Source: Brochothrix thermosphacta DSM 20171 = FSL F6-1036
Lineage (GTDB): Bacteria; Bacillota; Bacilli; Lactobacillales; Listeriaceae
Length of the DNA: 64,000 nucleotides
NCBI RefSeq assembly: GCF_036884295.1
Contig: NZ_CP145608.1
Coordinates: forward strand, 1,364,001-1,428,000
Direction of reading: 5' to 3'
Positions 6,106 through 26,166 of this stretch are shown in pieces. Each line of letters starts with the position of its first letter. Positions within the stretch are counted from its first letter, which is position 1. A program made the translations under genes and the position numbers. The notes beneath the pieces were generated by a model that was not told the DNA's origin, did no database searches, and saw only the letters and a list, made by a program, of their open reading frames with translations.

Positions 6106-6831
6106 TTAATATTTCCCCCTTACAGTCGTTCCAATTTTTTCGCCCATTGCTGCGCGTTTAATATTACCTTCTTCATTTAATGAGAAAACAACAAGTGGAA
6201 TATCATTATCCATGCTTAATGAAGAAGCCGTTGTATCCATTACTTCTAAACCAGAAGAAATGATTTCAAGGTATGATAATTCTTCAAATTTAGTTGCTGT
6301 TGCGTCAGTTTTAGGATCAGCAGTATAAACACCATCAACATTGTTTTTACCCATTAAAATAACATCTGCTTCAATTTCAGCTGCACGTAATGCTGCCGTA
6401 GTATCTGTAGAGAAATAAGGGTTACCTGTTCCAGCTGCGAAGATAACAACGCGGCCTTTTTCAAGGTGACGAATAGCACGACGACGAATATACGGTTCTG
6501 CTACTTGACGCATTTCAATAGATGATTGTACACGTGTTGGTACACCCACATTTTCAAGTGAATCTTGTAAAGAAAGTGAGTTCATAACTGTAGCAAGCAT
6601 GCCCATGTAATCGGCATTTGCACGATCCATACCCATTTCACTTCCAATTTTACCTCGCCAAATATTTCCGCCACCACAAACAATTGCAACTTCAATACCT
6701 AGTTCTACTACTTCTTTCACTTGTTTAGCAATTGAGTTCACGACTGTTGGATTGATACCAAAACCTTCTTCTCCTGCTAATGCCTCACCGCTTAACTTAA
6801 ATACGATTCGTTTATATTTAGGTGTATTCAT
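6106..6831 (-). CDS. pyrH: UMP kinase
   Basis: Phosphorylates UMP to UDP in pyrimidine metabolism. It is a hexameric amino-acid-kinase-fold enzyme regulated by GTP and UTP. The 241 residues begin with the FKLSGEAL nucleotide-binding strand and contain GGGNIWRG, the [12 protein letters not shown] region and the [12 protein letters not shown] segment. GGAGGT is six bases before the ATG. It overlaps no neighbour but sits two bases from frr; a terminator separates it from tsf upstream. Confidence 0.98.
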
Positions 6832-6875
6832 TATTAACCTCCACTCAATTTTACAATCGATTATTGATATTCTTT

Positions 6876-6900
6876 AAAAAAAGGGGAGCAAATGCTCCCC
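6876..6900 (-). terminator. Rho-independent terminator after tsf
   Basis: On the minus strand GGGGAGC-atttGCTCCCC-type arms (6883-6889 with 6894-6900) are followed by seven T residues. The position, 77 bases past the tsf stop codon, suits termination of the rpsB-tsf transcript with partial read-through into pyrH. Confidence 0.85.
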
Positions 6901-6976
6901 CATAGACTATTTAATTGTTATACCGTCGCTAGGTAGCTCCAGTAATCAATAGTCTGGTTATCTACGTGACACGTAA

Positions 6977-7861
6977 TTAGTTGTTGATTTGGTTCATAAC
7001 TTCTTCTGCAAAGTTTTCTTCGCGTTTCTCGATACCTTCGCCGACTTCAAAACGAGCAAATTCAAGAACTTTTGCGCCTTTTTCTTCAACAAATTTACCA
7101 ACAGTTACGTCAGGGTTTTTAACAAATGGTTGGTCAACAAGGCTAATGTCAGACAAGAATTTGTTTAAACGACCAGTGATCATTTTTTCAACGATGTTAG
7201 CTGGTTTACCTTCGTTTAATGCTTGTTGAGTTAACACTTCTTTTTCATGTGCTAATTCTTCAGGAGCAACTTCATCACGAGTGATGTATTTAGGGTTAAC
7301 TGCAGCGATGTGCATTGCAACGTCTTTAGCAGTTGCTTCATCAGTAGTACCTTCAATAACTGTTAAAGCACCGATACGTCCACCCATGTGTAAGTAAGCG
7401 CCAAAAGCAGAAGTTTCATTTTTTTCCATGATTACAAAACGGCGTAATGATAATTTTTCACCAATTTTGTTCATTGCAGTAGTGATGTATGTTTCAACAG
7501 TTTCGCCTGCGTTGATTTCAGAAGCAAGAGCAGCTTCAAGATCAGCTGGTTTAGAAGCTAATAAGTGCTCGCTTAATTCTTTAACAACAGTTTGGAAACC
7601 TTCGTTTTTAGCAACGAAGTCAGTTTCAGCATTTACTTCTAAAAGAACAGCAAAGTTACCATCAGTTAATACATTTGTAATACCTTCAGCAGCAATACGG
7701 TCTGCTTTTTTAGCAGCGTTAGAGATACCTTTTTCACGTAGGTAATCGATTGCAGCATCGATATCACCGTTTGTTTCAACTAAAGCTTTTTTACAGTCCA
7801 TCATACCTGCACCTGTTTTTTCACGTAATTCTTTTACTTGAGCAGCACTAATTTGAGCCAT
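6977..7861 (-). CDS. tsf: Elongation factor Ts
   Basis: Nucleotide exchange factor for EF-Tu. I place the start at 7861 ([19 protein letters not shown]), because AGGAGGAAACATAAA lies directly upstream and the family starts here. A longer in-frame ATG adds 27 unrelated residues. The protein has 294 residues with the N-terminal UBA-like domain and the TDFVAKN motif (about residue 80) that contacts EF-Tu. It follows rpsB after an inter-gene hairpin. Confidence 0.97.
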
Positions 7862-24412: not shown

Positions 24413-24607
24413 ATGATCGCTAATATTATTGGTCCAATAATTGTTTTTCTTTCAATTACTGTAGGTGTTTTTGGACTTTTACTAATTATCATTAGTCTTT
24501 TTTCAAAAACAAAACTTTCTAAATATGGGCTAATTTGTATAATTGTCGGTATTTTGATGTATGCTGCGACATTTTTGTTCAACCTACTAGATTCCAGTCA
24601 TTGCTGA
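24413..24607 (+). CDS. Small two-helix membrane protein, unknown
   Basis: 64 residues in two hydrophobic segments (about 4-30 and 38-58) joined by the basic loop SKTKLSKYG, ending DSSHC. The AGGGGGT site seven bases before ATG is good, so it is probably real. It points toward the cluster of 23-residue peptide genes and is the nearest other gene to them; a link as an immunity or partner protein is conceivable but unsupported. I do not recognise a family. Confidence 0.55.
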   Translation: MIANIIGPIIVFLSITVGVFGLLLIIISLFSKTKLSKYGLICIIVGILMYAATFLFNLLDSSHC

Positions 24608-24618
24608 AAAGTAATATG

Positions 24619-24698
24619 AAAAATAGACTGCTGATTTTCGATTAAATATCAAAAATAGACTGCTGATTTTCGATTAAATATCAAAAATCAACAGTCTA
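24619..24698 (-). terminator. Terminator hairpin with one arm tandemly duplicated
   Basis: A 32-bp unit (starting AAAAATAGACTGCTGATTTT) repeats at 24619 and 24651 and is followed by the complementary arm AAAATCAACAGTCTA (24684-24698). On the minus strand this gives one 5' arm and two alternative 3' arms, each followed by five T residues. It could end the transcript of the peptide genes upstream. Confidence 0.7.
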
Positions 24699-24944: not shown

Positions 24945-25016
24945 TTAACATGCTGAAATTCCGATTAATGTGAAGAATGGGACTGCGAAGAACCCAAGGA
25001 TCGCTGCTGTAAACAT
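24945..25016 (-). CDS. 23-residue hydrophobic peptide ending in Cys (copy 1, type A)
   Basis: Exactly 23 codons plus stop. The product begins MFTAAILGFF, has VPFF around residues 12-15, and ends LIGISAC, the last residue being cysteine. AAGGAGGTG lies seven bases before the ATG, about as strong as any site in the window. The protein is identical to the copy at 25170-25241; their two nucleotide differences are both synonymous. There is no Lys/Arg N-region, so it is not a classical signal peptide, but the last four residues ISAC fit a lipobox. Too short for routine gene callers. Function unknown; a peptide signal, leaderless bacteriocin or membrane toxin are alternatives. Confidence 0.8.
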   Translation of the reverse strand: MFTAAILGFFAVPFFTLIGISAC

Positions 25017-25049
25017 TTGAACACCTCCTTTTTAACTTTTTTATAATTA

Positions 25050-25121
25050 TTAACAAAATTTAATTGATGCTAATCCACCGACTAAAAGTAATGGTGCTGC
25101 AAATAAAAGTCCTACTACCAT
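25050..25121 (-). CDS. 23-residue hydrophobic peptide ending in Cys (divergent member)
   Basis: Same size as its neighbours (23 residues) but a different sequence. It starts MVVGLLFAAP, has a hydrophobic Leu/Gly core, and ends LASIKFC, again with a terminal cysteine. AGGAGGTG precedes the ATG by eight bases. It carries one lysine near the end and a central proline at residue 10, where types A and B have proline at 13. The lipobox fit is poorer (IKFC). It lies between the two type A genes, 33 bases upstream of copy 1, so the three are probably one transcript. Function unknown. Confidence 0.75.
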   Translation of the reverse strand: MVVGLLFAAPLLLVGGLASIKFC

Positions 25122-25169
25122 TATGCTCACCTCCTGTTCAACTTATTTTTGAAAATATATTTTTTCTGA

Positions 25170-25241
25170 TTAACATGCTGAAATTCCGATTAACGTGAAG
25201 AATGGGACTGCGAAGAACCCAAGGATTGCTGCTGTAAACAT
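25170..25241 (-). CDS. 23-residue hydrophobic peptide ending in Cys (copy 2, type A)
   Basis: Encodes the same protein as 24945-25016: N-terminus MFTAAILGFF, C-terminus LIGISAC. The codons for Ala5 and Thr16 differ only at the third position, so two copies have diverged without changing the peptide. AGGAGGTG precedes the ATG. It is the first gene of a probable three-gene run (25241 to 24945), itself downstream of the type B gene at 25356-25427. Confidence 0.8.
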   Translation of the reverse strand: MFTAAILGFFAVPFFTLIGISAC

Positions 25242-25272
25242 TTGAACACCTCCTGCCTGTTTTAAATAATAA

Positions 25273-25320
25273 TTAACGATAATAAGTGCTCCTGAAACAT
25301 AAAATAGCACTAAGCATCAT
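25273..25320 (-). other. Possible decayed peptide gene between type A and type B copies
   Basis: A short frame of 15 codons (MMLSAILCFRSTYYR) has AAGGTG four to seven bases upstream and fills the gap where another 23-codon gene could have stood. It lacks the family length, the proline and the terminal cysteine. It may be a degenerate copy or a chance frame. Confidence 0.25.
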
Positions 25321-25355
25321 CTGTCACCTTATTTAATTTGCTGTCTATTTACTCA

Positions 25356-25427
25356 TTAACATGCCGAAACTCCTACTAGTGCAAGAAATGGAATAAACGC
25401 CATACCTACTAATGTCAGTACCATCAT
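25356..25427 (-). CDS. 23-residue hydrophobic peptide ending in Cys (copy 1, type B)
   Basis: Begins MMVLTLVGMAF, contains IPFL around residues 12-15 and ends LVGVSAC. Three ATGs stand in a row; the middle one (25427) gives 23 residues and an eight-base distance from GGAGG, matching all the other members. Type A and type B share Met1, Gly8, Pro13, Phe14, Leu17, Gly19, Ser21 and Cys23, so they are related. A duplicated regulatory block lies about 165 bases upstream (25593-25656). Function unknown. Confidence 0.8.
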   Translation of the reverse strand: MMVLTLVGMAFIPFLALVGVSAC

Positions 25428-25592
25428 CATAATCACCTCCTTAAAATCATAATTAAAATTGTGTCTTCACTGTATTACCAGTGAAGATATCATCGTTATT
25501 TTTTCAATATTGCAATTATTCAGGCTTCGAAAAACACCTTATAATTTTCAAGTGATTTTCCTTTTTACGCGTTGACCTTAATTTTAATAACC

Positions 25593-25656
25593 CCTTGTTT
25601 AAACAGTGATTTCTTATCATAAATTCACTTTTAGTGTCATTTATGAACCAAAAAAA
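25593..25656 (-). promoter_or_regulatory. Regulatory block, copy A, upstream of peptide genes
   Basis: About 64 bp that recurs at 26101-26166. Conserved cores include GTGATTTCTTATCATAA, TTCACTTTTAGTGTCA and ATAAACCAAAAAA-like sequence (plus strand). CACT-TTT-AGTG is a perfect short palindrome and AGTGA...TCACT flank an inner TATGAT. It is better conserved than the leader between it and the peptide gene, so it probably holds a promoter and operator. No regulator can be named. Confidence 0.55.
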
Positions 25657-25713
25657 TATCATCAATAAAGACAGTCAATTAATATAGCTTAAAATCACAC
25701 CTTTAATCAATAC

Positions 25714-25758
25714 AATAAAAAAGAGAATTTCCAATCAATAATCGAAAATAAATCCTCT
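25714..25758 (-). terminator. Terminator between the two peptide transcription units
   Basis: On the minus strand AGAGGATTT and AAATTCTCT pair across a 19-base loop and are followed by TTTTTATTG. It would end the transcript of the type B copy 2 gene and isolate the downstream unit. Confidence 0.65.
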
Positions 25759-25877
25759 ATTTTATGAGGGAATGTTCACTGATTTCAGATGTTCTTTCTG
25801 GTTTAATTACTAATTTTTGTCGCATTTCAACTTTAAGGCTGTTTTCATTTTATTGCTAAAAAGTCACTTTCAACTTA

Positions 25878-25949
25878 TTAACATGTTGAAACGCCAACTA
25901 AAGCAAGAAACGGAATAAACGCCATACCTACTAACGTCAGTACCATCAT
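25878..25949 (-). CDS. 23-residue hydrophobic peptide ending in Cys (copy 2, type B)
   Basis: Begins MMVLTLVGMAF and ends LVGVSTC. Compared with the gene at 25356-25427, seven codons differ only synonymously and one changes Ala22 to Thr. Such a pattern is strong evidence for selection on the peptide. GGAGG lies eight bases before the ATG. It stands alone between its own regulatory block (26101-26166) and a terminator (25714-25758). Confidence 0.8.
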   Translation of the reverse strand: MMVLTLVGMAFIPFLALVGVSTC

Positions 25950-26100
25950 TGATATCACCTCCTTAAAATTTTTGGAGAATATAGCTATTTACTATTCCTG
26001 TCAGATAAAACATTATGATAGCTTATTTGAATGTAAAAGAAACTTAACTGTGATTATTTGGAAGCTCTCTTTTGTCACTCGCTATCCTAGTTTTATAATA

Positions 26101-26166
26101 CCTTGTTAATAATGTGATTTCTTATCATAATTTCACTTTTAGTGTCAGTTATAAACCAAAAAAAAA
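26101..26166 (-). promoter_or_regulatory. Regulatory block, copy B, upstream of peptide gene
   Basis: Second copy of the block at 25593, with CCTTGTT, GTGATTTCTTATCATAA, TTTCACTTTTAGTGTCA and an A-rich run at its upstream end. It is about 150 bases before the ATG at 25949. The intervening leader is not conserved between the two units apart from the TTTTAAGGAGGTGAT ribosome site. Confidence 0.55.

Follow-up and report, generated by a model that had tools for sequence, protein, structure and literature searches.

Small genes for cysteine-ending hydrophobic peptides in Brochothrix thermosphacta and their possible relation to an acyl-chain operon

A stretch of 64,000 nucleotides (nt) from Brochothrix thermosphacta DSM 20171 = FSL F6-1036 (contig NZ_CP145608.1, positions 1364001-1428000), referred to here as the window, contains an array of five small genes for hydrophobic peptides that end in cysteine. 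The genome, 2.56 Mb in one contig, holds seven genes for such oily, Cys-ending peptides of about 20-24 residues, five in the window and two within an operon that encodes an acyl carrier protein (ACP), a ketosynthase (KS) and ATP-binding cassette (ABC) transporters. This operon is conserved in Vagococcus salmoninarum, where it also carries a peptide of this kind. It is tentatively proposed that the peptides are ribosomal products acylated by the operon and exported as membrane-active lipopeptides, with the window array providing extra substrates or components. This reading is preferred here, at a likelihood somewhat short of even.

The array of small genes

All five open reading frames (ORFs) lie on the minus strand at the coordinates given by a first-pass annotation of the sequence (Table 1). 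Each is preceded by AGGAGGTG and each closes with a Cys codon followed by a stop. The distance to the 23-codon ATG is 7-8 nt when measured from AGGAGG and 5-6 nt from its last G, in agreement with the Shine-Dalgarno (SD) spacing reported earlier. The chance expectation for AAGGAGGTG(4-9)ATG is 0.05 per window. An ATG ORF of 19-25 codons that follows AGGAGGTG and ends in Cys occurs five times in the window and in none of 60 first-order Markov randomisations. These five are also the sole ATG ORFs of 12-35 codons preceded by AGGAGG in the window. As the anatomy is this rare and no other mini-ORF of the window shares the site, chance does not account for the ORFs and they are genuine small genes.

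The peptides of types A and B have M1, G8, P13, F14, L17, G19, S21, A22 and C23 in common, which adds A22 to the residues already listed. Type C is divergent, as had been described, with one Lys and with Pro at position 10, against P13 in types A and B. A uniform length of 23 codons had also been assigned. This is correct for four of the ORFs, one of which (25878-25949) has two in-frame ATGs; the ORF at 25356-25430 begins with three consecutive in-frame ATGs and would yield 24, 23 or 22 residues. The window peptides have a grand average of hydropathy (GRAVY) of about 2 and 0-1 charged residues. All the peptides are free of Lys and Arg in their N-terminal half, and their length and hydrophobicity correspond to one membrane span.

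Selection and copying

Eight sites distinguish the type B copies: seven are synonymous and one exchanges Ala for Thr. The probability of one or fewer replaced codons under random substitution is 0.00065, which supports selection on the type B peptide. The duplication of the type B unit spanned about 520 nt, and two islands within it have remained alike (97 nt with SD and ORF, 87%; 74 nt upstream, 86%) while the intervening DNA has diverged. The type A copies show two differences, both synonymous (P = 0.07). Here the repeat (D3) measures exactly 86 nt, comprises the ribosome site and the ORF, is 98% identical and has unrelated flanks, which points to a recent copy or gene conversion. Since the repeat is limited to the SD and ORF and two synonymous changes are weak evidence by themselves, the near-identity of type A is not usable as proof of selection. 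The substitution counts of the first-pass annotation were reproduced for both pairs, and its argument from conservation to selection is retained for type B.

Peptides within an acyl-chain operon

A search of the genome with the pattern GGAGGTG...ATG...TGYTAA returned the five window genes and two more at a distance of about 158 kb, MFTGLAILAGIGGVGLLSLC and MVTGLAILAGIGGVGLLSLC (MVTG...), the frames of which were checked. The gene order at this second locus is ACP, FabF-like KS, a partial KS of 190 amino acids (aa), a DUF374-like protein of 220 aa, the two peptides, an ABC ATPase, a MacB/FtsX permease and a second ABC pair. V. salmoninarum has the operon in the same order (ACP, KS, truncated KS, acyltransferase, peptide, ABC), with a divergent LytTR response regulator adjoining it. 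The gap between its relative of the 220-aa protein and the ABC ATPase gene contains AGGAGGTG followed by MVSMSIAAVTAILIGIMSIGWC. The operon-type peptides of both genomes have 20 and 22 residues and no proline, and a definition by 23 residues and a central proline is abandoned. As read from their sequences, the features common to all peptides are the strong SD, high hydrophobicity, almost no charge and the terminal Cys. The unmodified peptides have calculated masses of about 2438, 2384, 2333, 1906 and 1858 Da, to which a formyl-Met would add 28. Near the second locus, at L021:13966-14449, are tandem repeats (MLIPYVNVLRV... units) with several open frames.

The operon has a dedicated ACP (PF00550, 2.4e-11). 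Its KS conserves the Cys-His-His set at both loci (C156, H289 and H324), scores nearer to FabF than to AmcF, and has chain B of PDB 9s5h as its nearest solved relative. The partial KS, 156-190 aa across loci, corresponds to no more than a portion of the N-terminal KS domain, with the KS core kept, and is not a full-length chain length factor; its nearest solved relative is chain C of 9s5h. Because Phe or Ala replaces the KS Cys, this protein is probably a non-catalytic partner similar to the chain length factor or AmcG (PMC10698177). The Vagococcus relative of the 220-aa protein aligns with a Fusobacterium protein over 169 residues (BLASTP E 3e-17, 29% identity), and the latter matches DUF374 at 3.8e-17. 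DUF374 proteins are usually counted among the lysophospholipid-type acyltransferases. The Fusobacterium match is a lone DUF374 gene with neither cluster nor peptide and was set aside.

Distribution

Co-occurrence was assessed in 395 genomes of the order. The partial KS is limited to B. thermosphacta and V. salmoninarum, and the 220-aa protein has its one relative in V. salmoninarum. The pattern AGGAGGTG(5-8)ATG(57-63)TGYTAA matched 34 of these genomes. A frame check, in which exact and near duplicates were covered in part, left the window genes, the Vagococcus operon peptide and three other in-frame cases, all of them set aside. The first, MKKFFDFFFNVVTYHMFLKFPC (L035:2035-2101 (-), G131:C66), from another family of the order, is preceded by AGGAGGTG and ends in Cys, but is a charged 22-mer with no ACP or KS genes in the 9 kb read. 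The second, in genome G126, is antisense inside a larger gene and the third, in G018, is a frameshifted HU-like start. Uncharged in-frame matches are therefore confined to the two genomes that possess the operon enzymes. As the pattern was designed on the B. thermosphacta genome, independent weight attaches to the one match in Vagococcus, and this lies within the operon. A plain rule of SD, 12-35 codons and Cys-stop recovered exactly the eight peptides from the seven loci scanned.

Similarity searches with the 23-mers found nothing outside the B. thermosphacta genome among 41 genomes. The peptides had no match in phages or plasmids and reached the cut-off of no NCBIfam family, and a literature search found no described family for them, in accord with the earlier view that none was known. 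Array DNA gave short chance matches only when compared with plasmids, and no viral contigs with the acyltransferase and KS were found. The acyltransferase profile matched only the B. thermosphacta genome among 399 genomes of the class. The KS profile produced one further match across 292 Bacillota, with a FabF-like score (281 bits). Plasmid matches to the KS (Priestia, Photobacterium) were rejected, as they comprised one isolated fabF-like gene and two clusters, one granadaene-like and the other larger and type II polyketide synthase (PKS)-like, with no such peptides in the two clusters scanned. The granadaene-like cluster, on Priestia megaterium plasmid NZ_CP120620.1, encodes a ketoreductase, a malonyltransferase, an ACP, a dehydratase, an aminomethyltransferase-like protein and a KS.

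The array occupies the interval from the start of lemA to the end of a ccdC-like (DUF1453) gene, which measures 2.2 kb here and 153 nt in the one congener compared. No such peptide is present in the interval of that congener, a draft assembly, so the array appears to have been gained here or lost there.

Proposed role and alternatives

The lipopeptide reading is based on the presence of a leaderless, nearly uncharged, one-span peptide with an invariant Cys beside an acyl-making and acyl-transferring set and an exporter. The window array would encode variants of this peptide, with the terminal Cys as a fixed chemical handle. An acyl chain would be assembled or loaded by the ACP, the KS and its Cys-less truncated partner and then attached to the peptide by the DUF374-like acyltransferase, with the Cys thiol as a possible site. 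The lipopeptide would be lifted from the membrane by a MacB-type ABC transporter. The window peptides, as extra substrates or components of the operon system, would be membrane-active outside the cell in the manner of a bacteriocin or surfactant.

Several points weigh against this proposal. The 220-aa protein resembles DUF374 below the Pfam cut-off and has no clear HX4D motif, and its AlphaFold model (predicted local distance difference test, 45) was too poor for use, which made a fold search meaningless. In B. thermosphacta, a one-base frameshift within an A-run divides the ABC ATPase gene of the operon into two overlapping ORFs (L021:7151-7474 and 6687-7154; stop and GTG overlap). This may be a true lesion, with the operon perhaps impaired, or may reflect coupled halves or an assembly error. 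The known operon loci number two. No enzymes are encoded beside the window array, and the operon is distant from it. Types A and B align with the operon peptides no better than composition-matched shuffles (p 0.2-0.5), and type C aligns weakly by the same measure (p about 0.02, uncorrected). Because of these poor alignments, the link between array and operon is inferred from shared anatomy and restricted occurrence.

The lack of enzymes beside the array and the poor alignment of types A and B favour an alternative in which the window peptides act unmodified, as leaderless hydrophobic peptides secreted or inserted into the membrane like bacteriocins or phenol-soluble modulins (PSMs), with the Cys forming disulfide dimers. 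The KS operon would then be an independent system whose peptides look similar. The presence of several nearly identical copies, each with a very strong ribosome site, also suggests a high dosage. The alternative is nevertheless considered rather unlikely: PSMs and the known leaderless bacteriocins have a cationic or amphipathic character, unlike these peptides, and only the two operon-bearing genomes share the anatomy.

Dimensions suited to one membrane span, and the ABC genes that adjoin the operon peptides, raise the possibility that the peptides are small single-span proteins with a regulatory or subunit role in a membrane complex of the cell, for example an ABC transporter. This appears improbable. 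Near-identical multiple copies and absence from the orthologous site of the congener would be unusual for subunits, the ABC genes near the array are kept in the congener without it, and the terminal Cys would be left unexplained.

Tandem genes for small hydrophobic peptides, the duplicated units and the long upstream regions of type B could also be accounted for by type I toxins under antisense RNA control. There is little to recommend this explanation, as Rfam gave no match in the window, promoter-like sites there are hardly more frequent than in shuffles, the SD is strong and exposed, and the charged tail of known toxins is absent. The least likely reading is that of pheromone decoys or signal peptides of a lipoprotein-like kind, with Lgt lipidating the Cys, since the resemblance of the type A and B ends (ISAC, VSAC, VSTC) to lipobox positions -3 to +1 does not extend to types C, D and V (IKFC, LSLC, IGWC), a positively charged N-terminal region is missing and nothing follows the Cys.

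Acylation by the operon is the reading retained. It may be extended, more doubtfully, to a class of leaderless peptides in which the Cys thiol accepts a chain from a minimal type II PKS-like set through a DUF374-type acyltransferase, with a multi-copy array to supply variants. Few lipid-bearing ribosomal peptides are known, and large modifying enzymes and leader peptides have usually led to their discovery. A class without an evident leader, about 20-24 residues long and recognisable only by its strong ribosome site and terminal Cys, would escape gene finders and cluster-mining tools. The rule of an SD, an uncharged mini-ORF and a Cys-stop near ACP and KS genes makes the class searchable. The host is a food-spoilage bacterium of meat, in which the idea can be put to the test.

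Elements flanking the array

The islands upstream of both type B genes contain a conserved 30-nt dyad, TCATAAAT-GACACTAAAAGTGA-ATTTATGA, which pairs in the computed fold and is a possible operator or leader hairpin. Neither the window nor the second locus has a further good match to it. Downstream of the array is a terminator-like hairpin, partly formed by a 32-nt tandem repeat at 24613-24676 (two copies, 97%). Beyond it, a strongly hydrophobic ORF of 64 aa on the opposite strand is also Cys-ending and is missing from the short interval of the congener. That it encodes an immunity or accessory membrane protein is a guess.

Table 1. Array genes and flanking elements, numbered from the first nucleotide of the window
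Feature	Position	Strand	Sequence or basis
Type A, copy 1	24945..25016	-	MFTAAILGFFAVPFFTLIGISAC; AGGAGGTG 5 nt before ATG
Type C, divergent	25050..25121	-	MVVGLLFAAPLLLVGGLASIKFC; AGGAGGTG 6 nt before ATG
Type A, copy 2	25170..25241	-	Peptide identical to copy 1; in 86-nt repeat D3, 98%
Type B, copy 1	25356..25430	-	(M)MMVLTLVGMAFIPFLALVGVSAC; 23-mer of first-pass annotation begins at 25427
Type B, copy 2	25878..25949	-	MMVLTLVGMAFIPFLALVGVSTC; in repeat D1, 97 nt, 87%
Upstream conserved island, type B copy 1	25583..25656	-	Repeat D4, 86% to 26091-26164; alignment
Upstream conserved island, type B copy 2	26091..26164	-	Same dyad, small changes
Terminator-like hairpin, 19 pairs, downstream of array	24656..24698	-	Consensus match only
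64-aa ORF, strongly hydrophobic, Cys-ending (...LLDSSHC)	24413..24607	+ (opposite to array)	ORF call; no Pfam match above cut-off

Comparison with known systems

The array resembles PSMs and leaderless bacteriocins in its clustered peptides of about 20 residues made without a leader, and differs in that these are nearly uncharged and end in Cys. Aryl-polyene clusters carry an acyltransferase gene. The operon shares with them and with granadaene clusters a dedicated ACP and KS. The reductase and dehydratase of those systems, as in the Priestia plasmid cluster, are not evident among the ORFs of either operon locus, and the operon carries the mini-peptide.

The AmcF-AmcG pair of cispentacin is similar in having one active KS, a partner without functional motifs and a dedicated ACP (PMC10698177). 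In contrast to that system, the operon is without an adenylating starter enzyme, an aminotransferase and a reductase, and its KS is the nearer to FabF.

Goadvionins and other lipolanthines belong to the lanthipeptides; they have synthetases and leaders, and GNAT enzymes carry out their lipidation (PMC13060382). No lanthipeptide synthetase is evident among the ORFs of either operon locus, nor is a leader, and the acyltransferase is DUF374-like, with no GNAT found. In goadvionins and lipolanthines, a ribosomal peptide receives its acyl or polyketide chain from an acyltransferase encoded in the cluster (PMC10435860, citing Kozakai 2020; PMC13060382). This class is the nearest known idea to the proposed lipopeptide, the likeness being that of a ribosomal peptide combined with a cluster acyltransferase, by which acylation is here proposed to occur.
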